52,328 nucleotides of DNA from an uncultured Pelagibacteraceae bacterium (GTDB lineage Bacteria; Pseudomonadota; Alphaproteobacteria; Pelagibacterales; Pelagibacteraceae): the NCBI GenBank assembly GCA_902569615.1, contig CACFUX010000005.1, forward strand, positions 1 through 52,328, written 5' to 3'. Below are positions 10,662 through 20,955 of this stretch, piece after piece (the stretch's first letter is position 1; each line of letters starts with the position of its first letter). The position numbers and the translations under genes were made by a program. Under the pieces are notes generated by a model. The model saw nothing but the letters and a program-made list of their open reading frames with translations, was not told the DNA's origin and ran no database searches.

Positions 10662-11708
10662 ATGACAAAAGATTTACTAACAAGATTAAATGAAGGTCCT
10701 GTTCTTTTTGCAGAAGGATATTTATTTGCAATGGAAAGAAGAGGATATTTATCAGCTGGAGCATTTGTGCCAGAAGTAGTTCTAGAGCATCCTGAGGTAG
10801 TATCTCAATTACATAGGGAGTTTATAAGAGCAGGATCTGATATTGTTCAAGCATTTACTTATTATGGTCACAGAGAAAAACTACGTTTGATTGGCAAAGA
10901 AGATTTGTTGGAGCCTTTACAAAAAAATGCTCTTCAAATAGCAAAAGATGCAAGAGATGAATTTAAAGATCTTGATTTATTGGTTTGCGGCGATGTTGCT
11001 AATACAAATATTTATGATCCAAATGACAAAAAAAGTCATTCACAGTGTCAAAAAATGTACGAAGAGCAAGTTTTTTGGGCAAAAGAGGCAGGTGTAGATT
11101 TCATAGTTGCTGAAACAATAAATTGGACTGAAGAAATGAAAATTGCTCTTAAAGCTATTAAGGATGAAGGCTTGATTGCAGTAACAAATTTTTCTATTAA
11201 GAAAGGTGACAAAACTAGAGAAGGACATACTCCTGGTGATGCTTGTAAAATAATGGAAGATCTTGGAGCAGATGTAGTTGGATTAAATTGTTATAGGGGA
11301 CCAAAAATGACCATGAAACTTTTGCCAGAAATAAGAGAAAAAGTTTCTTGTCACGTTGCAGCCTTACCTGTTCCATATAGAACTACAGAAGAACAGCCAG
11401 GTTTTTTAAATCAAACTGATCATGGGTGTGATTGTATACCTGGGGGGAATGCATTCCCAGTAGCATTAGATAATTTGTATTGCAACAGATTTGAAATGGC
11501 TGAGTTTGCAAAGGATTGTCAAAAACAAAATATTAATCTTATTGGAATTTGTTGTGGAGCAGAACCCCATCATGTTAGAGAAATGTCAGTAGCTTTAGGT
11601 AGAAAACCAATATCTTATAAATATTATCCTGATATGAGCAGACATTGGCTACATGGTAAAGATAAATCATTTTTAGAATTAAATACTAAAATGAAAGATA
11701 AATATTAA
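10662..11708 (+). CDS. bhmT: Betaine-homocysteine S-methyltransferase-like enzyme
   Basis: 348-aa zinc-dependent methyltransferase of the homocysteine S-methyltransferase family. The zinc ligands are in place: Cys210 in GLNC and Cys297-Cys298 in GICCGAEPHHVR. The BHMT-like N-terminal segment (EGYLFAMERRGYLSAGAFVPE) distinguishes it from MmuM. The expected reaction is glycine betaine + homocysteine to dimethylglycine + methionine in the cytoplasm. It starts after a strong SD (AAGGAG), is preceded by a structured leader, and its stop overlaps the dimethylglycine dehydrogenase-like start by 1 base. The context (dimethylglycine oxidation directly downstream) supports betaine as the methyl donor. 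DMSP or another onium donor remains possible. Confidence 0.9.
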   Translation: MTKDLLTRLNEGPVLFAEGYLFAMERRGYLSAGAFVPEVVLEHPEVVSQLHREFIRAGSDIVQAFTYYGHREKLRLIGKEDLLEPLQKNALQIAKDARDEFKDLDLLVCGDVANTNIYDPNDKKSHSQCQKMYEEQVFWAKEAGVDFIVAETINWTEEMKIALKAIKDEGLIAVTNFSIKKGDKTREGHTPGDACKIMEDLGADVVGLNCYRGPKMTMKLLPEIREKVSCHVAALPVPYRTTEEQPGFLNQTDHGCDCIPGGNAFPVALDNLYCNRFEMAEFAKDCQKQNINLIGICCGAEPHHVREMSVALGRKPISYKYYPDMSRHWLHGKDKSFLELNTKMKDKY

Positions 11709-14113
11709 TGGAAAAGAATGCCAAGGTAGTAATTATTGGAGGTGGTGTAGTAGGGTGTTCAATTCTCTACCATCTCTCTAAATTTGGTTTAAAAGATTGT
11801 ATTCTTTTAGAGAGAAATGAATTGACATCAGGATCTTCATGGCATGCCGCTGGAAATGTTCATGTAATATCTAATGATCCAAATATTTCTAGAATGATGG
11901 CCTACACGATAGGTCTTTATAAGGAAATAGAAAAAGAGTCAGGTCATTCTTGTGGATTTAAACCAAGTGGAGGATTTTACTTAGCTTCAAATGATGTTTG
12001 GGCTGAATATCTTAAAAGGGAAAGATCAAAAGCAAGATATATGGGCCTAGATCAAGAATTTATTTCACTTGAAGAAGTAAAGAAGAAAAATCCATTAATT
12101 GATCCATCTAGATATTTATTAGCATTATGGGATCCAATAGATGGAGAGGTTGATCCGTCTGGTGTTACATATGCTTTTGCGAAAGCAGCAAAAGTTCATG
12201 GTGGAAAATATTATACACACACAGTTGTTAAAGACACAAAGCAAAAAGAGGATGGTTCATGGAATGTTATAACAGATAAAGGAAATATTACTGCAGAAAT
12301 TTTAATTAATGCTGGAGGATTATGGGCAAGAGAAGTTGGTAATTTGGCTGGATTAAATTTACCAGTACAGCCGATGGAACATCATTATTTAATTACAGAA
12401 GCTATTCCAGAAATTGAATCATTGGGAGATCAAAGAATTCCAATAGGTACAGATTTTGAAGGCAATATTTATTTTAGACAAGAAGGCAAGGGTATGTTGC
12501 TTGGAACCTATGAACAAAAATCTACACCATGGAAGGTAGATGGAACTCCAATGAATTTCGGACACGAACTTTTAGAACCTAAGCTTGACAACATTCAAGA
12601 TAGATTGGCTATTGGGTTTGAGAGAATGCCAGCCTTAGAAAAAGCAGGAATAAAAAATATTGTAAATGGACCATTTACATTTGGTCCTGACGGAAGTCCA
12701 TTAATTGGTCCTGTTCCTGGGATGAAAAATTATTGGGTAGCCGTAGGTGTTATGGCAGGATTTTGCCAAGGAGGTGGAGTTGGAAAATGTATAGCAGAAT
12801 GGATTATAGACGGTGAACCATCAATAGATGTTTGGGCAATGGATGTTGCAAGATTTGGAGATTATGCATCACCACAATATGGAACGATTAAATCCTCAGA
12901 AAATTATGAAAGAAGATTTATTATGACCTTTCCCAATGAAACTTTGCCAAAAGGTAGAAAACAAAAAACAACAGCCTTATATGATCGATTTGTAGATCAA
13001 GGAGCAGTGATGGGAGATTCTTTTGGTTTAGAGAATGTTTTGTGGTTTGCTAAAAACAAAGAAGATGCATATGAAGAGCCAACAATTAAAAGATCAAGAT
13101 CTCATAATTATATTTCAAAGGAAGTAATTAATGTAAGGGAAAATGTAGGTGTAACTGAAGTTGCTAATTTTTCTAAGCACGAATTTAAAGGTCCAGATGC
13201 AAGAAAATTTTTAGATCATATAATGGCAGGCAAGCTTCCAAAACCTGGAAGAATTTCTTTGACACCAATGCTTACATATAAAGGAAAACTTTATGGGGAT
13301 TTAACTGTTGCTTGTTTAGAAGAAAATGAATTTATGGTTTTTGGATCTGGAGCAGCACAAGAAATGCATAGAAGATGGTTCGAAAGCCATATTGAAAAAT
13401 TTAATTTACAATATAAAAATAGATCTGATGAATTTCATGGACTTAGTATTGCAGGTCCAAAATCTAGAGATCTTTTGCAAAAAATTGTAAGAGAAAATGT
13501 TTCTAATGACAATTTTAAATTTAGAGACTCTAGAAAAATGTTTGTTGCAGGTGTTCCCGCTATTATAAACAGAATATCTTTTACGGGAGAGCTTGGGTAT
13601 GAAATTTATGTGGCTCCTCATTTTCAACTAAAATTATATGAAGAATTAACAAAAGCAGGAAAAGAATTTAATATTAAACCTTTTGGCGCAAGAGCTTTAA
13701 TGTCTATGAGATTAGAAAAAAATTGGGGAGCATGGACTTTAGATTATCGACCTGATTTTACCGCCAAAGAAACTGGATTAGATGTTTTTATAAATTGGGA
13801 TAAAGAATTTATTGGAAAAGATAGTGCACAAAAAGATGAAAGTAAAAACAAATTAGTTCCATTAATAGTTGAGACTAATGACATAGATGTAACTTATAAC
13901 GAAGCTGTAATAAAAGATGATAAAAGCATTGGATATATAACTTCTGGAGGATTTGCTCATTTTGTAAATAAAAGTGTTGCATTTTCTTATCTAAATCAAA
14001 ATGAATTAAAATCTGAAAAAGGTATTCAGGTTGAAATCAATGGCGACTTTTTTAACTGTTCAATAATTAAAGAACCACTTTATGATCCTTCTGGACAAAA
14101 AATGAGGAACTAA
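11708..14113 (+). CDS. Dimethylglycine/sarcosine dehydrogenase-type FAD + GcvT fusion enzyme (first copy)
   Basis: 801-aa two-module protein. Residues ~6-400 are a DAO-type FAD oxidoreductase with the dinucleotide motif GGGVVG at 11-16 and SGSSWHAAGN at 41-50, whose His46 matches the residue that covalently holds FAD in dimethylglycine and sarcosine dehydrogenases. Residues ~430-801 form a GcvT-like folate-binding module (SIAGPKSRDLL, FTGELGYEIYV, GARALMSMRLEKNWG). It oxidatively removes an N-methyl group and passes formaldehyde-level carbon to THF. Electrons probably go to EtfAB encoded downstream. It overlaps both neighbours by 1 base. Its substrate may be dimethylglycine, as it follows the bhmT-like gene. 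Confidence 0.88.
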   Translation: MEKNAKVVIIGGGVVGCSILYHLSKFGLKDCILLERNELTSGSSWHAAGNVHVISNDPNISRMMAYTIGLYKEIEKESGHSCGFKPSGGFYLASNDVWAEYLKRERSKARYMGLDQEFISLEEVKKKNPLIDPSRYLLALWDPIDGEVDPSGVTYAFAKAAKVHGGKYYTHTVVKDTKQKEDGSWNVITDKGNITAEILINAGGLWAREVGNLAGLNLPVQPMEHHYLITEAIPEIESLGDQRIPIGTDFEGNIYFRQEGKGMLLGTYEQKSTPWKVDGTPMNFGHELLEPKLDNIQDRLAIGFERMPALEKAGIKNIVNGPFTFGPDGSPLIGPVPGMKNYWVAVGVMAGFCQGGGVGKCIAEWIIDGEPSIDVWAMDVARFGDYASPQYGTIKSSENYERRFIMTFPNETLPKGRKQKTTALYDRFVDQGAVMGDSFGLENVLWFAKNKEDAYEEPTIKRSRSHNYISKEVINVRENVGVTEVANFSKHEFKGPDARKFLDHIMAGKLPKPGRISLTPMLTYKGKLYGDLTVACLEENEFMVFGSGAAQEMHRRWFESHIEKFNLQYKNRSDEFHGLSIAGPKSRDLLQKIVRENVSNDNFKFRDSRKMFVAGVPAIINRISFTGELGYEIYVAPHFQLKLYEELTKAGKEFNIKPFGARALMSMRLEKNWGAWTLDYRPDFTAKETGLDVFINWDKEFIGKDSAQKDESKNKLVPLIVETNDIDVTYNEAVIKDDKSIGYITSGGFAHFVNKSVAFSYLNQNELKSEKGIQVEINGDFFNCSIIKEPLYDPSGQKMRN

Positions 14114-14742
14114 TGGCCCAAAAAGATGTAGGAAACAAAGTACCAATCTATAAATTAAAAAAGACTGATGAGGTCATGAAATATTATGATGAGTGGGGCG
14201 AAGGAAATAAATATGATCAAGACATGGTTGATTGGAATTATACTGGTCCCAAGGAAACTTCAGAAGTATTTGTTAAATATCAAAAAAATAAAGATGCTAA
14301 AATTTATGATGCAGGATGTGGAACTGGTTTAGTAGGAGTTGAATTGAAAAAATACGGGTTTTCAAATTTTTATGGAGCTGATTTATCTCAAAAGTTATTA
14401 GACTTAGTTCCATCAGGGCTATACCAAAAATTAGAAAAGGTTGATTTAAATAAACAAATTGCAGAAAACGATAATTCTTATGATGCAGTAATGTGCGTTG
14501 GAACTTTTACATTTGGACATGTAAAACCTCCTGCTTTAGACGAATTTATAAGAATTACCAAGAACAAGGGTTTTATTTGTTTTACAATTAACGAAGGAAT
14601 TCACGAAGAATATGGATTTGATAAAAAAATTGAACAACTTAATAAAAATAATAAATGGAAAAAAATAGAATTTTTCAAATCAAACTATATTGCAAGTAAA
14701 GATGTTAATGCATGGCTAGGACTTTATGAGGTAACAAAGTAA
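14113..14742 (+). CDS. Class I SAM-dependent methyltransferase (WBSCR27/METTL27-like)
   Basis: 209-aa Rossmann-fold methyltransferase. Motif I is DAGCGTGLVG near residues 59-68, followed by GADLSQKLLDL (acidic end of beta 2) and DAVMCVGTFTFGHV (motif II/III region). The N-terminal DEVMKYYDEWGEGNKYDQD stretch resembles the WBSCR27/METTL27 group, whose substrates are poorly known. It overlaps the flavin dehydrogenase by 1 base and the Rieske oxygenase gene by 1 base, so it is firmly inside the methylated-amine operon. A methyl-adding enzyme in a demethylating pathway is unexpected. It could act on a pathway intermediate or a cofactor. Confidence 0.85.
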   Translation: MAQKDVGNKVPIYKLKKTDEVMKYYDEWGEGNKYDQDMVDWNYTGPKETSEVFVKYQKNKDAKIYDAGCGTGLVGVELKKYGFSNFYGADLSQKLLDLVPSGLYQKLEKVDLNKQIAENDNSYDAVMCVGTFTFGHVKPPALDEFIRITKNKGFICFTINEGIHEEYGFDKKIEQLNKNNKWKKIEFFKSNYIASKDVNAWLGLYEVTK

Positions 14743-15917
14743 TGTCGGAAATTTACAAAATTATTGAAAAAGACAAGTTAGATGTTGTAAATAAATCTAT
14801 TGAACAATCCCATGGGCTTCCAAACGAATGTTATACGAGTGAGAAATATACAAAACTTGAAAGAAAAAAATTATTTGAAGATAAATGGGTAGTAATAGGT
14901 GTAGGGAGTTCAATTCCAAATAAAGGAGATGCAAAGCCCTTTGATCTTTTAGGTATTCCTATAATTATATTAAGAGATAAGCAAAATAAAATAAGAGTGT
15001 TCCACAATGTATGCAGTCATAGGGGTTATAAAATTTTACAAAAAAGTTGTAAAATCAAAAATGTAATAAGATGTCCATATCATTCTTGGTCATATGATAT
15101 GACTGGAAATCTCGTAGCCACACCTCACATTGGTGGCATGAACAAACATCAATGTAGTAAATTTGATAAATCTAAAAGTGGGCTAAAAGAAATTAAATCT
15201 TACATTTGGTTAGACATGATATTTATAAATATAAGTGAAAATGAAATAGATTTTGAAGAATACATACAGCCTTTAAGTGAAAGATGGAAAAAATTCTGGC
15301 CTGAAAAAGATAGAAAATTAATGGTTTATTCAAATGACTTTGGTTATTTTAATTTAAACGCAAAATGCAATTGGAAATTTGCAATCGAGAATTATTGTGA
15401 AAGCTATCATTTACCTTGGGTCCACCCAGGGTTAAATTCATATTCTAAAATTGAAGACCATTACCACATCCAAGGTTTGCCAAACCGTTTTGCAGGACAA
15501 GGAACGAAAGTTTATAATCCAAAATTTAAAGGTAAAGTAAAATTTCCATCTTTCCCAAATTGGCCCAAAGATAAAGAGCATATAGCTGAATACATTGCGC
15601 TATTCCCCAATGTGATGCTTGGTGTTCACAAAGATCATTTTTATGCATATTGGTTAGAACCTGTTGATCATAAATATACCAAAGAACATATGGAAATTTA
15701 TTATGTTGGAAAAAATGCCGCAAATTCAAAGAAATTTAAATCTTTAAGAAAACAAAACTACAATATGTGGAAAAGTATACAAAGCGAAGATTTAAATATT
15801 ATTGAAGGTATGCAAGATGGTAGAAACTCTCCAGTATATAATGGTGGAAATTTTTCTCCAATTATGGATAATCCGACTCACCATTTTCATAAATGGGTAG
15901 CAACTAACTTAGTATAA
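14742..15917 (+). CDS. Rieske non-heme iron oxygenase, alpha subunit (GbcA/CntA-like quaternary amine demethylase)
   Basis: 391-aa oxygenase. The Rieske [2Fe-2S] ligands are Cys91-x-His93 (CSHRG) and Cys111-x2-His114 (CPYH). The mononuclear iron site shows His223 and His228 in ENYCESYHLPWVH. The residue bridging the two centres is Glu220, rather than the Asp of aromatic-ring dioxygenases, a trait of quaternary-ammonium enzymes such as CntA/YeaW and GbcA. It therefore probably hydroxylates an N-methyl group of glycine betaine, stachydrine, carnitine or a relative. No reductase (GbcB/CntB type) is nearby, so electrons must come from elsewhere. It overlaps the methyltransferase gene by 1 base, and the SET gene follows after 4 bases. 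Confidence 0.88.
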   Translation: MSEIYKIIEKDKLDVVNKSIEQSHGLPNECYTSEKYTKLERKKLFEDKWVVIGVGSSIPNKGDAKPFDLLGIPIIILRDKQNKIRVFHNVCSHRGYKILQKSCKIKNVIRCPYHSWSYDMTGNLVATPHIGGMNKHQCSKFDKSKSGLKEIKSYIWLDMIFINISENEIDFEEYIQPLSERWKKFWPEKDRKLMVYSNDFGYFNLNAKCNWKFAIENYCESYHLPWVHPGLNSYSKIEDHYHIQGLPNRFAGQGTKVYNPKFKGKVKFPSFPNWPKDKEHIAEYIALFPNVMLGVHKDHFYAYWLEPVDHKYTKEHMEIYYVGKNAANSKKFKSLRKQNYNMWKSIQSEDLNIIEGMQDGRNSPVYNGGNFSPIMDNPTHHFHKWVATNLV

Positions 15918-15921
15918 AATT

Positions 15922-16362
15922 ATGTATAGACCTTTACCAGATGGATTAACAATAAAAAACTCTCCTATCGAAGGTTTAGGATTATTTGCAACCAAAGATA
16001 TTAAAAAAAATTCTTTTATCGGAATAACACATGTTAGAGACGAACAATTTGAAAATAAATATATAAGAACTCCTATTGGAGGATTTTATAACCACTCAAA
16101 CGATCCGACAGTGATCAGAATGGTTTCAGATGTATTGCCGAAATTAAAATTTGGTGATTTTGTAGATACCGATATTAATACAAAAAAATTAAAAGATGGA
16201 AAAAATGATAGAGAAAATATGTATTATAATTTACACGAAAAAAGTGATGCAAAATATATGTTCATGGTCGCAATAAAAGATATTAAAGCCGGAGAAGAAT
16301 TAGCGGCAAACTATAATCTGTATACTTATCCAAAAACTGGAATAGGCATACAAATGCTTTAG
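15922..16362 (+). CDS. Stand-alone SET-domain protein
   Basis: 146-aa protein made almost entirely of a SET fold, the protein-lysine methyltransferase family common in eukaryotes. Visible landmarks are GLGLFA at 18-23, the SAM-binding pseudoknot segment YNHSND at 56-61, and the closing IKAGEELAANYNLY near 121-134 with its catalytic-type tyrosine. No other domain is attached. It is 4 bases after the Rieske gene and 4 bases before the DddP-like gene, so it is clearly part of the operon. Its target is unknown; it may methylate a protein or a small amine substrate. The insert between the NHS and AGEEL motifs is long and charged. Confidence 0.82.
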   Translation: MYRPLPDGLTIKNSPIEGLGLFATKDIKKNSFIGITHVRDEQFENKYIRTPIGGFYNHSNDPTVIRMVSDVLPKLKFGDFVDTDINTKKLKDGKNDRENMYYNLHEKSDAKYMFMVAIKDIKAGEELAANYNLYTYPKTGIGIQML

Positions 16363-16366
16363 CATA

Positions 16367-17602
16367 ATGAAGTTTAAAAGAAAAATTAATCCAAATACTA
16401 AATCAAGTCATAATTTTATTACAAAAAAAAGATTAAAAGAAGATGAAATAGATTTCCAAAAATTAAGATCTTATAGACTTGATAGAGTTAAAAAAGAATT
16501 AGAAAAAAATAGAATAGAGGCTTGTATACTATTTGATCCAGTAAACATCAGATATGCATTAGACACTGTTAATATGAGTGTTTATAACATGCACAATCTT
16601 ACAAGATATTGTTTTGTTCCAGTAAATGGTCCAACAATATTGTATGAGTATTTTAACTGTGAAATATTATCAAAGGATTTAGATTTAATTGATGAAATAA
16701 GACCCGCAATAACTTGGGATTACTTTAGCAACGGTGATCAAGCGAGCAAACAATTAAAAAAATGGATTAATGAGATCAAAGATCTATCTAAATCTTATTT
16801 TAAAAGCAAAAGAGTAGCAATTGATGTTTTAAACGGACCTGCAGTTTCTGAATTAAATAAAGAAGGTATTGAAGTTTTGGATGCAAAATTAATACTTGAA
16901 CAAGCAAGAGTTATTAAATCACCAGAAGAATTAAAATGCATGAAAGCAGCAATAGAGGTTGCTGAAATTGGTGTTGAAAAAATGCGTAAAGAATTAAAAG
17001 CTGGAATGACCGAGGATGAACTATGGTCAATTTTACACAAAACTAATATTGAACATGGTGGAGAATGGATTGAATGTAGAATTTTATCATCAGGTCAAAG
17101 AACAAATCCTTGGATGCAAGAAAGTAGCAATAAAATTATTCAAAAAGGTGAAATAGTTTCATTTGATACTGATATGGTTGGTCCTTATGGATATTGCGCA
17201 GATATATCTAGAACTTTTGTGGAGGGACATAAATTCAATGAGGAACAAAAAAAATTATACAAAATGGCCGTTGAACATATAGATCACAATTATAGATTGA
17301 TTAAGCCTGGAGTTTCATTCAAAGAATTTACAAAAAAATCATGGAAGCTTCCTGAAGAATATTATGGAAATAGATATTCATGTATGGTGCATGGAATTGG
17401 ACTTTGTGATGAATGGCCACAAATTAAATACCCGACCGACGGTGGACAAAGTGATGGTTGTTTTGAAAAAAATATGACCATAACAGTCGAAAGTTATATA
17501 GGTAAAGTTGGTGGAAAAGAAGGTGTTAAACTAGAACAGCAATATTTAGTTGGTGAAAATAATCTTGAACTTTTATCACATCATCCTTTAGAACAATTAT
17601 AA
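16367..17602 (+). CDS. dddP: DddP-like M24-family metalloenzyme (putative DMSP lyase)
   Basis: 411-aa pita-bread-fold protein of the M24 (creatinase/prolidase) family that resembles DMSP lyase DddP rather than an aminopeptidase. Characteristic segments are ILFDPVNIRYALDTVNM, EHGGEWIECRILSSGQRTNP and VHGIGLCDEWP. Metal ligands expected from DddP are all present: Asp267, Asp269, Asp279, His342, Glu375 and Glu390. Asp348 falls at the position of DddP's catalytic Asp, six residues after the ligand His. DddP cleaves DMSP to DMS and acrylate. The gene is shorter at the N-terminus than roseobacter DddP. It lies inside a betaine-type operon, so a related onium substrate is possible. An AcuI-like gene is in the same window. 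Confidence 0.78.
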   Translation: MKFKRKINPNTKSSHNFITKKRLKEDEIDFQKLRSYRLDRVKKELEKNRIEACILFDPVNIRYALDTVNMSVYNMHNLTRYCFVPVNGPTILYEYFNCEILSKDLDLIDEIRPAITWDYFSNGDQASKQLKKWINEIKDLSKSYFKSKRVAIDVLNGPAVSELNKEGIEVLDAKLILEQARVIKSPEELKCMKAAIEVAEIGVEKMRKELKAGMTEDELWSILHKTNIEHGGEWIECRILSSGQRTNPWMQESSNKIIQKGEIVSFDTDMVGPYGYCADISRTFVEGHKFNEEQKKLYKMAVEHIDHNYRLIKPGVSFKEFTKKSWKLPEEYYGNRYSCMVHGIGLCDEWPQIKYPTDGGQSDGCFEKNMTITVESYIGKVGGKEGVKLEQQYLVGENNLELLSHHPLEQL

Positions 17603-18009
17603 TGAAAATAATTTTAGTAATGGGATTGCCGGGCGCAGGCAAAACAACCCTAGTGAATGAGTTAGAAAAATTAATTAAATGTAAAATATTAAATGCAGAT
17701 AAAATGAGAAAAGCCGCAAATGATTGGGATTTCTCGATGGAAGGTAGAAAAAGACAAGCAAAGAGAATGTCTGATGCAGCAATTAAATTAAAAAAAGAAG
17801 GAAATAATGTAATCGCAGATTTTATTTGTCCAACACTAGAAGCACAAGAATTATTTCAATCAGATTACATTATTTGGGTAGATACAATTAAAGAAGGAAG
17901 ATTTGAAGATACAAATCAAATGTTTGTAAAACCTGAAAAATTTAATTTTCATGTTACAACACAAGATGCTAAGATGTGGGCATTTAAAATTTTGGAGGAT
18001 TTAAAATAA
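17602..18009 (+). CDS. Small P-loop kinase (adenylylsulfate kinase-like/AAA_33)
   Basis: 135-aa P-loop protein with Walker A GLPGAGKTT at residues 8-16, an ILNADKMR segment typical of zeta-toxin/APS-kinase-like small-molecule kinases, and a lid-like basic helix (MEGRKRQAKRMSD). It is shorter than genuine APS kinase (~200 aa) and no ATP sulfurylase is nearby, so sulfate activation is unlikely. The substrate is unknown. It overlaps the DddP-like gene and the next nucleotidylyltransferase gene by 1 base each. A kinase directly followed by a nucleotidylyltransferase suggests consecutive phosphorylation and nucleotidylation of one metabolite (inference). Confidence 0.8.
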   Translation: MKIILVMGLPGAGKTTLVNELEKLIKCKILNADKMRKAANDWDFSMEGRKRQAKRMSDAAIKLKKEGNNVIADFICPTLEAQELFQSDYIIWVDTIKEGRFEDTNQMFVKPEKFNFHVTTQDAKMWAFKILEDLK

Positions 18010-18383
18010 TGTCTTATAAATGGGATAATAAAAAACCAACAGCACAAATGCTAGGAAGATGGCAACCATTTCATGATGGTCATTATGCATTATTTGAAGA
18101 AATTATAAAAAAAACAGGACAAGTATGTATACAAATTAGGGATGTTCAAGGTGTAGACGATAATCCTTTTGATTTTGAAACAGTAAAGAAAAAAATAGAA
18201 GAAAGATTAAACCCTGAATATGAAGGAAGATTTAAAATAATTTTAGTACCGAATATAACAAACATTTGTTACGGAAGAGGAGTTGGTTACAAAATAGAAG
18301 AAATTGTTATGCCAGAAGAAATTCAAAAAATATCAGCAACTAAAATCAGAGCTAAAATGCGGAAAGACGGAGAACTAAAGTGA
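18009..18383 (+). CDS. Cytidylyltransferase-like nucleotidylyltransferase
   Basis: 124-aa HIGH-superfamily nucleotidylyltransferase. The nucleotide-binding motif is GRWQPFHDGH at residues 16-25 (HxGH form), and the closing ISATKIR is at 108-114, matching the ISSTxIR motif. Its compact size is near that of glycerol-3-phosphate cytidylyltransferase or CoaD-type enzymes, but specificity residues cannot be assigned. It follows the small kinase with a 1-base overlap and overlaps the HalD-like gene by 4 bases. It probably attaches CMP or AMP to a phosphorylated compound made by the neighbour (inference). Regulation is as for the operon. Confidence 0.83.
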   Translation: MSYKWDNKKPTAQMLGRWQPFHDGHYALFEEIIKKTGQVCIQIRDVQGVDDNPFDFETVKKKIEERLNPEYEGRFKIILVPNITNICYGRGVGYKIEEIVMPEEIQKISATKIRAKMRKDGELK

Positions 18384-19231
18384 ATGAAAGACTTAAGTCA
18401 ATCGTAGATCTAAAAAAATATCCGATCTATGACTTAAATTCTCCTACAATTAAAAATTTAATTAAAAAATGTAAAAAAGAGTTAGACCAATATAGTTGTT
18501 CAACTATACCTAATTTTATTTTACCAAAATCATTAAAAATAATGAACTCCGAATTAAAAAATCAGTTAGATGAAGTTTATATGTCTAAAGAAAGTATAAA
18601 TCCTTATTTATATTCTGAAGACAATCCAAAATTACCAGAGAATCATCCAAAAAGAACTTTTATGAATAGATATAATGGATATTTAAATTCAGATTGTTTT
18701 CCTAAAAATTCTGAAATGAAATATTTATATGAAACAGACGAACTTTTAAAATTTGTTTCAGCGTGCCTAGGAGTTTCTCCAATTTATAGATGGGCAGACC
18801 CATTAGCATGTCATGCATATAATGTCATGAAACCTGAAGGCATCCTTCCTTGGCATTTTGATAGTTGTGAATTTACATTAAGCTTAATGATTCAAAAGCC
18901 AGAGAAGGGGGGAATATTTGAATATTGTCCAAATATTCGGGAACCAGGAAATGAAAATTTTGAAGAGGTTAAAAAAGTTTTAAATGGTGACAGAACAAGG
19001 GTTAAACAACTTAAATTAGAACCAGGCGACCTACAAATATTTAAAGGTAGATTTACACTTCATAGGGTAACAAAAATAGAAGGTCAAAAATCTAGATATA
19101 TGTGTATCCCTGCTTATGTTTTGGATCCTTGGAGAGTCAATACCCCAGAGCATTCAAAAGCAATTTATGGCAAAGTATTGCCAATTCATTTAGAGAGAAA
19201 TGTAGCTAGATCAGATGGTTTAGCAGATTAA
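18380..19231 (+). CDS. HalD/BesD-family Fe(II)/2-oxoglutarate oxygenase
   Basis: 283-aa jelly-roll oxygenase resembling the HalD/BesD/ArpA group, some members of which act on free amino acids such as lysine. The iron site appears complete: His159-x-Asp161 (PWHFDSCEFTLSLM) and His228 (FTLHRV), with Arg239 to bind 2-oxoglutarate. Halogenases of this family have Gly in place of the Asp, so retention of Asp161 predicts hydroxylation. The coding frame overlaps the nucleotidylyltransferase by 4 bases and the carnitine dehydrogenase-like gene by 1 base. With a carnitine enzyme next door, hydroxylation of a trimethyl-amino acid is an attractive but untested idea. Confidence 0.82.
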   Translation: MNERLKSIVDLKKYPIYDLNSPTIKNLIKKCKKELDQYSCSTIPNFILPKSLKIMNSELKNQLDEVYMSKESINPYLYSEDNPKLPENHPKRTFMNRYNGYLNSDCFPKNSEMKYLYETDELLKFVSACLGVSPIYRWADPLACHAYNVMKPEGILPWHFDSCEFTLSLMIQKPEKGGIFEYCPNIREPGNENFEEVKKVLNGDRTRVKQLKLEPGDLQIFKGRFTLHRVTKIEGQKSRYMCIPAYVLDPWRVNTPEHSKAIYGKVLPIHLERNVARSDGLAD

Positions 19232-20166
19232 TGAAAAAAATTTCTGTTATCGGTGCAGGGGTAATTGGCTCAGGATGGATCATAAGATTTTTAGCTCACG
19301 ATAAGAAAGTTACAGCATATGATAAAGATTTAAAATTAAAAAAAAAAATTATTGCAGAAATAAGAAGAACTTGGCCATATGTTAAAAAACTTTTTAATAA
19401 AAAAAAACTTAAACTTAAAAACTTTAGATATGTAACATCTTTAAAGGAAGCTTTAAAAGATGCAGATTTTATCCAAGAATGTGCACCAGAAAATTATAAG
19501 TTAAAAACTAAATTAATGGAAACTATTGGAAATTATTCCAAACCTAATGCCATTATCTCTTCAAGTTCTTCAGGTTTACTTCCATCAAAGATTTATTCAA
19601 AATGTAAAAATCCTTCAAGAACTATTATAGCTCACCCATTTAATCCTGTTTATATGATTCCAGGTGTAGAACTAGTACCTGGAAAAAAAACATCAAAAAA
19701 AATATTAAATAAAGCTAATAGATTTTACAAATCTATATCTATGAATCCAATAATTCTTAAAAAAGAATTACCAGGATATTTATCAGACAGGCTCCAAGAA
19801 GCCTTATGGAGAGAAGCCTTACATATTGTAAATGAAGGTTATGCAACTACAAAAGATTTAGATAGAGCAATTGAAGATGGCCCTGGTCTTAGATGGTCTT
19901 TAATGGGTACTTTTTTAACATTTCATTTGGCAGGAGGTAAAGCTGGGATGAAGCATATGTTAGAACAATTTGGACCTGCGTTAAAATTACCTTGGACAAA
20001 ACTGAAAGCCCCTAAACTTTCAAAAAAACTTTCATCGAGAGTTATTACCGGCACTAGAAAACAAGCAAAAGGTAAATCAGTGGAAGAAATATCAAAAATT
20101 AGAGATGAATATTTAGTCAAACTTCAGAAGTTAAGAAAAAAATATGAAGACAAGATAAGAAAATGA
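19231..20166 (+). CDS. lcdH: L-carnitine dehydrogenase-like 3-hydroxyacyl dehydrogenase
   Basis: 311-aa NAD-dependent dehydrogenase with the Rossmann motif GAGVIGSGW at 8-16, HPFNP in the middle, and a C-terminal segment GPGLRWSLMGTFLTFHLAGG that I recognise as the L-carnitine dehydrogenase signature rather than 3-hydroxybutyryl-CoA dehydrogenase. The reaction would be L-carnitine to 3-dehydrocarnitine. In known pathways a BKACE-type cleavage enzyme then yields acetyl groups and glycine betaine. No such enzyme is in the window, but the glycine betaine branch is. It overlaps the HalD-like gene by 1 base. The C-terminal ~40 residues are a lysine-rich helix. Confidence 0.88.
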   Translation: MKKISVIGAGVIGSGWIIRFLAHDKKVTAYDKDLKLKKKIIAEIRRTWPYVKKLFNKKKLKLKNFRYVTSLKEALKDADFIQECAPENYKLKTKLMETIGNYSKPNAIISSSSSGLLPSKIYSKCKNPSRTIIAHPFNPVYMIPGVELVPGKKTSKKILNKANRFYKSISMNPIILKKELPGYLSDRLQEALWREALHIVNEGYATTKDLDRAIEDGPGLRWSLMGTFLTFHLAGGKAGMKHMLEQFGPALKLPWTKLKAPKLSKKLSSRVITGTRKQAKGKSVEEISKIRDEYLVKLQKLRKKYEDKIRK

Positions 20167-20181
20167 TAGTAATAAAATATT

Positions 20182-20955
20182 ATGAATGTTTTGGTCAAAA
20201 ATTTAGGTAATGGAATTAAAAATATAATAATAAATGATCCAAAAACTTATAATTCATTGTCTTTTGTAACCTTAAAGACTCTTTTAAATACTTTTAAAAA
20301 ACTTGATAAAGATAGCTCAACAAAAGTAATTATTTTAGAAGGAGCAGGAAAAGGTTTTAGTGCTGGTCATAATTTAAAAGAAGTAAAAAGTTTAAAGAAA
20401 AGATCTAAATATCTAAAACTATTTAATCTTTGTTCAAAGTTGATGATTCAAATAGTTGAAGGAAGAAAACCAGTTATAGCAAAAGTACATGGAGCAGCTT
20501 ATGCAGCTGGATGTCAATTAGCAACTAGTTGTGATTTAGCTTACTGCACAAATGAAGCAACTTTTGCTACTCCTGGAGTTAATATTGGTTTATTTTGTAG
20601 CACTCCAATGGTTGCAGTTAGTAGAAAAATCAGCAGAAAAAGAATGATGAAAATGCTTTTAACTGGAGAACCTATTAACGCAAAATATGCAAAGGAAATA
20701 GGATTAATCAATGATTGTTTTTCAAAATCAAATCTTAACAAAGAAGTTTTAAAGGTTGCAAAAACAATTGCGTCTAAATCAAATTTAACAATAAAAATTG
20801 GAAAGCAAGCTTTTTATAAACAACTAGAAATGCCATTAAGGAAAGCTTATGAATATACAAGTAGAATGATGACTTTGAATATGATGTCTATAGATGCTCA
20901 TGAAGGTATATCAGCTTTTTTAAACAAGCGAAAACCTAAGTGGAAAAATAAATGA
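20182..20955 (+). CDS. Enoyl-CoA hydratase/isomerase-family protein (ECHDC3-like)
   Basis: 257-aa crotonase-fold protein. The acyl-CoA oxyanion-hole segments FSAGHNLKE and HGAAYAAGCQLA are present. Both catalytic glutamates of enoyl-CoA hydratase are replaced: Gln in AGCQLA and Gly in TPGVNIGLFCSTP. The ATPGVNIGLFCSTP stretch is typical of the ECHDC3-like subgroup, whose reaction is unknown. It is therefore unlikely to be a simple hydratase; a thioester hydrolase, lyase or isomerase role is possible. It lies 15 bases after the carnitine dehydrogenase-like gene and overlaps the CoA-binding protein by 4 bases, suggesting CoA-thioester chemistry in this part of the operon. Confidence 0.85.
   Translation: MNVLVKNLGNGIKNIIINDPKTYNSLSFVTLKTLLNTFKKLDKDSSTKVIILEGAGKGFSAGHNLKEVKSLKKRSKYLKLFNLCSKLMIQIVEGRKPVIAKVHGAAYAAGCQLATSCDLAYCTNEATFATPGVNIGLFCSTPMVAVSRKISRKRMMKMLLTGEPINAKYAKEIGLINDCFSKSNLNKEVLKVAKTIASKSNLTIKIGKQAFYKQLEMPLRKAYEYTSRMMTLNMMSIDAHEGISAFLNKRKPKWKNK

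Follow-up and report, generated by a model that had tools for sequence, protein, structure and literature searches.

Which reactions do four short, overlapping genes of a SAR11 bacterium catalyze, and do they belong to one route? The window analyzed here is a stretch of 52,328 nucleotides (contig CACFUX010000005.1, assembly GCA_902569615.1, positions 1 to 52,328) from an uncultured Pelagibacteraceae bacterium with a small SAR11-type genome (928,552 bases, 39 contigs, 73% complete). Encoded on its forward strand are a small P-loop kinase of the adenosine 5'-phosphosulfate (APS) kinase family (KIN, 17602..18009, 135 residues), a minimal HIGH-type nucleotidylyltransferase (NT, 18009..18383, 124 residues), a HalD-family 2-oxoglutarate-Fe(II) oxygenase (HAL, 18380..19231, 283 residues) and an L-carnitine-dehydrogenase-like protein (CDH, 19231..20166, 311 residues). 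The four genes are real and placed as first described, with overlaps of 1, 4 and 1 bases (KIN/NT, NT/HAL, HAL/CDH), but the single pathway that the original prediction drew through them was not upheld. KIN and NT probably form a conserved two-protein unit that makes 3'-phosphoadenosine 5'-phosphosulfate (PAPS), with KIN as the predicted APS kinase and NT as a predicted ATP-sulfurylase-like enzyme. NT would join sulfate to ATP, giving APS, and KIN would add a 3'-phosphate to APS, giving PAPS. Genomes and loci are cited below by G and L numbers.

Sequence, fold and distribution of the KIN-NT pair

KIN was matched to PF01583 (APS_kinase) with 38.2 bits (cut-off 21.1), and in alignment it has the Asp, Phe and Arg that contact APS (D33, F44, R49; residues as given in the accessible part of PMC4373884). 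The modelled fold of a phage homologue was closest to APS kinases; an APS-kinase fold is predicted for KIN from this model, and the likeness argues for PAPS synthesis. NT carries the motifs GRWQPFHDGH, DNPF, YGRGVGY and ISATKIR, and 23 columns were invariant among 55 aligned sequences (the window's included), with the signature GRxQPxHxGH, NP, GRxVGY and ISxTxIR. Its structure model (predicted local distance difference test 93.3, predicted template modelling score 0.84) has the compact fold of nicotinamide mononucleotide adenylyltransferase (NMNAT) and phosphopantetheine adenylyltransferase (PPAT). NT shares the HIGH and ISxTxIR motifs with these enzymes; unlike them it is shorter, scores far below their cut-offs and has a YGRxVGY motif of its own. 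The cytidylyltransferase family PF01467 was the sole Pfam family listed for NT (20.7 bits, just below the cut-off of 21); PF01747 (Sat) was not matched, and TIGR02039 and TIGR02034 (CysD/CysN) were not among the matches. The best 80 matches of an NT profile among named genomes were all titled Pelagibacteraceae or Pelagibacter. A Sat sulfate-site motif was sought in NT and rejected (QTRNIPHLGH in the true Sat of G050 against GRWQPFHDGH), and homology to Sat is not claimed.

Of the 201 genus genomes searched, 145 have NT and 139 have KIN (28 each in the 29 genomes at least 90% complete). For distance counts 138 KIN genomes were used, a weak match in G140 (E 5.2e-4) having been dropped. In all 135 genomes keeping both genes, KIN and NT lay within 8 kb on one contig, and their starts were at most 600 nt apart in 122; of the 13 with wider spacing four were opened (L034, L035, L036, L092), and other genes intervene. 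Large secreted-looking proteins of 705 and 787 residues lie between KIN and NT at L034:4598-6715 and L036:5370-7733. An enoyl-CoA hydratase gene (in the window 20182..20955, forward strand; PRK08139 346.2 bits, cut-off 313) followed NT, directly or past inserted genes, in all 11 genus loci opened. KIN-NT is a near-universal core pair at a fixed site of the genus.

Outside SAR11, NT was found in at least 576 viral stretches (600 listed). Viral sets comprised the 80 best matches per query and were counted per locus, some contigs entering twice (e.g. L193 = L262); viral counts were therefore also made by 16 NT clusters at 75% identity. KIN and NT were fused in 113 of 232 viral NT loci (sets of best matches plus two phage records). 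Of 106 split loci, 62 had a sulfotransferase-like gene at offset -2, and of 109 fused loci 17 had one at offset -1; such genes were almost never downstream of phage KIN-NT. A gene of this kind lay directly upstream on the same strand, with a gap of at most 30 nt, in 89 of 207 viral loci, and within six genes in 8 of the 16 clusters (weakly in the L222 cluster). Pfam confirmed 10 of the 12 sulfotransferase-like proteins checked against it; those of L222 and L250 (about 440 residues) had no Pfam support and were not counted as confirmed. When two phage sulfotransferases were taken as queries, KIN-NT was found in 13 of 14 and 49 of 80 loci. That phages carry the pair as a fusion or as neighbours, in many cases just after a sulfotransferase, speaks for PAPS as its product; the function of phage sulfotransferases is called unclear in the accessible part of PMC10580990. 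A DUF2061-like small gene adjoined NT in 18 viral loci (e.g. L245:4778-5005); its product may be a membrane-bound partner of the sulfate-activating enzymes. In Stenotrophomonas phage Bhz60 a NADAR-noted gene (L086:5157-5600) stands directly before the KIN-NT fusion.

A search of 72,556 plasmid records with NT gave ten matches, nine of them haloarchaeal and eight of these nine inside a gene annotated cysC. In five of five haloarchaeal loci opened, NT was fused to a canonical APS kinase and a sulfotransferase (Pfam) lay upstream, an arrangement that favours PAPS synthesis. Because the kinase halves of the five fusions scored 147.8 to 160.3 bits against TIGR00455 apsK (cut-off 138.7), the fusion partner of NT in this other domain of life is an APS kinase of canonical type. 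Bifunctional PAPS synthases resemble the pair in carrying out the same two reactions (as predicted here), in the fusion of nucleotidylyltransferase and APS kinase and in the sulfotransferases nearby; they differ in that NT has 124 residues and no Sat match, and KIN has 135 residues and another lid.

The nodulation cluster of Microvirga lotononidis (NodC, NodI, NodJ) encodes a sulfotransferase and a KIN-NT fusion together with CysD and a CysN that lacks an APS-kinase domain, and KIN was the only APS-kinase-like domain among the seven cluster proteins scanned. The NT half is decayed there (HESH for HxGH, NRF for NPF, GLDLGY for GRxVGY). Judged from these motifs, NT decays in the presence of another ATP sulfurylase, and a cluster so composed is a further reason to place KIN in PAPS synthesis. 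At its C-terminus the Microvirga CysN carries a DUF2061 domain.

Of the 24 genomes of a related family of the order, 16 have NT. The same 16 have aprA above cut-off, and KIN-NT adjoins aprBA in them; NT and aprA were both absent from the other 8. One of these (G038) has CysD and CysNC between the genes that flank KIN-NT-aprAB in G047, with flank identities of 44 to 92% on both sides. Four genomes, none of them with KIN-NT, gave CysNC as a cross-match of KIN (Pfam: G038, G039). Fisher tests gave 0.0066 for CysNC and 1.4e-6 for NT with aprA, values that take relatives to be independent, the latter for neighbouring genes, and are not proof. In one relative without KIN-NT, CysD-CysNC thus takes the locus of that pair, but the two systems differ in kind, CysD being PF01507 and CysN a GTPase while NT is a HIGH-type enzyme. 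From the position beside aprBA and the presence of CysD-CysNC between the same flanks, which argue for PAPS synthesis, we infer that sulfate is the substrate of NT. In G050 a true ATP sulfurylase lies between APS-kinase-like and pyruvate-kinase-like genes, which is the place of NT in the G013 and G108 cassettes; the likeness is in order only (kinases align over 42 residues; 26% for the pyruvate-kinase-like proteins). The pyruvate-kinase-like proteins stand directly after NT or ATP sulfurylase in three cassettes (L087:4952-5953, L043:8875-9861, L341:9981-11330), and PF00224 was found in both tested (L087, L341). In both SAR11 families aprA is followed by a gene for a protein of 116-117 residues (L339:9515-9868 in G012, L047:10019-10369 in G047), the two copies looking alike by eye; the G012 copy had neither a Pfam nor an NCBIfam match, and the protein is a candidate for a partner role in the handling of APS or sulfite.

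PAPS synthesis weighed against other readings

Several results weigh against PAPS synthesis, and the genomes that bear aprA or sulfotransferases without KIN-NT are among the weightiest. G009 (92% complete) has aprA without KIN-NT, and all 8 related-family genomes without KIN-NT still have a PF13469 sulfotransferase; CysNC was not seen in 4 of those 8, and in G048, one of the 4, neither KIN, NT, CysD nor CysNC was found in the 1,100,452 bases searched. No PF13469 protein was found in the window's own genome (73% complete, as given above). Genus genomes for which both places were listed have KIN-NT apart from aprBA, in surroundings of methylamine and optional genes; the correlation of KIN-NT with aprA within the genus is not informative, both being near-universal. 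In viruses, no sulfotransferase was found within six genes in 8 of the 16 NT clusters, and of the two sulfotransferase matches of the L222 cluster the one tested was without Pfam support. The second phage sulfotransferase query gave 7 of 80 loci with KIN and no NT (6 of them at or near a contig end) and 24 of 80 with neither gene. As for the proteins, KIN scored 31.4 bits against apsK, far below the cut-off passed by the haloarchaeal fusions, and is for that reason assigned to no group narrower than the Pfam family; it has Asn in place of the first Asp of DGD in aligned APS kinases, and EGRFEDTNQMF where the RDPKGLYKKA lid would stand. The nearest sequences and folds of NT are NMNAT and PPAT, not ATP sulfurylase; ATP sulfurylase was absent from the 50 rows listed in the NT fold comparisons, which does not exclude such a likeness.

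Some of the same results would suit a pair in which NT couples a nucleotide to another small acid and KIN 3'-phosphorylates the product, giving a PAPS-like carrier for sulfotransferase-fold enzymes. The CDP-phosphoramidate route of Campylobacter is a precedent for a carrier of something other than sulfate, NT is NMNAT/PPAT-like rather than ATP-sulfurylase-like, KIN lacks the usual lid, and sulfotransferase-fold neighbours alone suit any 3'-phosphonucleotide donor. Sulfate is nevertheless indicated by CysD-CysNC between the same flanks in the relative, by the fusions in which NT is joined to an APS kinase that passes the apsK cut-off, and by the aprBA neighbour and the Microvirga nodulation cluster, and another acid is considered unlikely.

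It is very unlikely that KIN is a true APS kinase served by APS from AprBA or the host, with NT as a nucleotide sensor or scaffold lacking sulfurylase activity. KIN is the only one of the two with a clear functional family, and AprBA makes APS in SAR11 (according to the accessible part of PMC5069961); the HIGH and ISxTxIR motifs are, however, invariant in the 55 NT sequences, the NT motifs have decayed in Microvirga, which has CysD and CysN, and NT occupies the place of a true ATP sulfurylase in the parallel cassette. A nicotinamide riboside kinase and NMN adenylyltransferase acting in nicotinamide adenine dinucleotide (NAD) salvage would agree with the top sequence matches of NT, which are NMN adenylyltransferases, and with the NADAR-noted gene of Bhz60. 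This is highly improbable: NT is shorter than those enzymes and scored 23.4 bits against TIGR01527 (cut-off 181.2), the phage homologue of KIN, as modelled, most resembles APS kinases in fold, and no recurring NAD gene was seen by eye among the listed viral neighbours.

The predicted PAPS synthesis by KIN and NT also bears on two proposals of the original prediction. That the kinase and nucleotidylyltransferase work as a pair on one metabolite agrees with the fusions in phages and haloarchaea; the order of reactions would be reversed, the kinase being predicted to act after nucleotidylyl transfer, and sulfate is better supported as substrate than the quaternary amine proposed. No description of the pair was found in the open PubMed Central literature, a scope outside which subscription papers and preprints fall.

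HAL, CDH and the surrounding genes

HAL was found in 66 and CDH in 75 of the 201 genus genomes (12 and 15 of the 29 at least 90% complete), CDH being counted only at E <=1e-40, to exclude fatty-acid-oxidation homologues. The distance between HAL and CDH was at most 1.5 kb in 15 of 46 genomes and at most 6 kb in 29. One route that phosphorylates, nucleotidylates, hydroxylates and oxidizes a trimethylammonium compound is extremely improbable: the HAL start is at most 1.5 kb from NT in 46 of the 60 genomes having both, but the route is unsupported because 85 of 145 NT genomes have no HAL match and the four genes are contiguous in only 9 of 201, and CDH away from KIN-NT sits in a carnitine-type island (four loci opened). 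A fixed four-gene set, as had been proposed, was thus not recovered; the outcome that the original prediction had itself named as refuting it, a pair occurring mostly apart from the oxygenase and dehydrogenase, was the one observed. HAL and CDH are optional neighbours, and the four genes are not one pathway. Their overlaps are nothing special for this stretch, since overlaps occur in 13 of the 18 adjacent gene pairs between 10662 and 28873.

HAL scored 45.5 bits against PF23169 (HalD, cut-off 26), and H-F-D and a distal H, read directly in the sequence, bear out the complete iron site claimed for it. In halogenases of HalD type the iron carboxylate is replaced by Gly or Ala. HAL therefore resembles the HalD/BesD-type halogenases and their hydroxylating relatives in family and differs from the halogenases in keeping the HxD carboxylate; by this rule it is expected to hydroxylate rather than halogenate. 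CDH was matched above cut-off to PF02737 and PF00725 (3-hydroxyacyl-CoA dehydrogenase) and scored 350.5 bits against L-carnitine dehydrogenase PRK07066, below the equivalog cut-off of 414. In the four opened loci with CDH away from KIN-NT it adjoined a BKACE gene in three and was near one in the fourth, and the stretch also contained a gamma-butyrobetaine-hydroxylase-like gene; HAL was found with such a gene in three loci, among them L098 (hydroxylase-like protein by eye). Names in these islands come from Pfam for L089 proteins and were otherwise given by eye. The SAR11 region described in the accessible part of PMC12421898 is variable and encodes carnitine dehydrogenase together with BBOX and BKACE; the window's CDH, unlike that one, lies outside such an island, behind KIN-NT-HAL. 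The HAL-CDH half of the original prediction, with its oxidation of a beta-hydroxy trimethylammonium acid, holds up in that these genes associate with carnitine-type catabolism. HAL and CDH likely hydroxylate and oxidize a carnitine-type acid as separate optional genes. In L092, L093, L088 and L096 a HAL paralogue (52-53%) is accompanied by CDH or a hydroxyisobutyrate-dehydrogenase-like gene, by a gene resembling class II aldolases (names by eye) and by an FrhB-like protein, which in L093 matches PF04432; the set is a candidate second hydroxylate-oxidize-cleave cassette.

Directly upstream of KIN, outside the pair, lies an M24 peptidase-fold protein related to DddP and creatinase (16367..17602, forward strand; PF00557), which scored 357.6 bits against the DddP model (cut-off 600). 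It closes a run (10662-17602) with homocysteine S-methyltransferase, DMGDH-like (by eye), methyltransferase, Rieske (GbcA-like, under cut-off) and SET-domain genes, likely for methylated-amine or sulfonium catabolism, which differs between relatives. The small bacterial SET-domain protein (15922-16362) also matches phage family PHROG 28741. The site before KIN varies in L036, L037, L041 and L035, where the genes are ones we take, by eye, to be EgtB/EgtD-like, amidinotransferase-like and agmatinase-like.

Meaning for SAR11 sulfur metabolism

Among 61 genomes of the order, PF01747 ATP sulfurylase was found in 1, aprA above cut-off in 48 and PF13469 sulfotransferases above cut-off in 44. Ca. Pelagibacter ubique has AprBA and lacks cysDNCHIJ and sat (accessible part of PMC5069961), and KIN-NT would fill this gap because an APS reductase is there without sat or cysDNC. 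In SAR11, AprBA would also make APS from sulfite, NT could run backwards (APS and pyrophosphate giving ATP and sulfate), a direction we infer there, and KIN would divert some APS to PAPS for sulfotransferases. It is tentatively proposed that NT may represent a third class of ATP sulfurylase, one that arose independently from an NMNAT-like ancestor, that with KIN it may form a PAPS synthase some 260 residues long that has spread through SAR11, phages and haloarchaea, and that in SAR11 it may close the missing step after APS reductase, from sulfite to sulfate with gain of ATP. If this is true, phage sulfotransferases would gain a role, and a new ATP sulfurylase class would offer a compact source of PAPS for biocatalysis. 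The source of PAPS for the sulfotransferases of 44 of the 61 genomes would be explained, and an enzyme of 124 residues would complete sulfite oxidation in the ocean's commonest bacteria.

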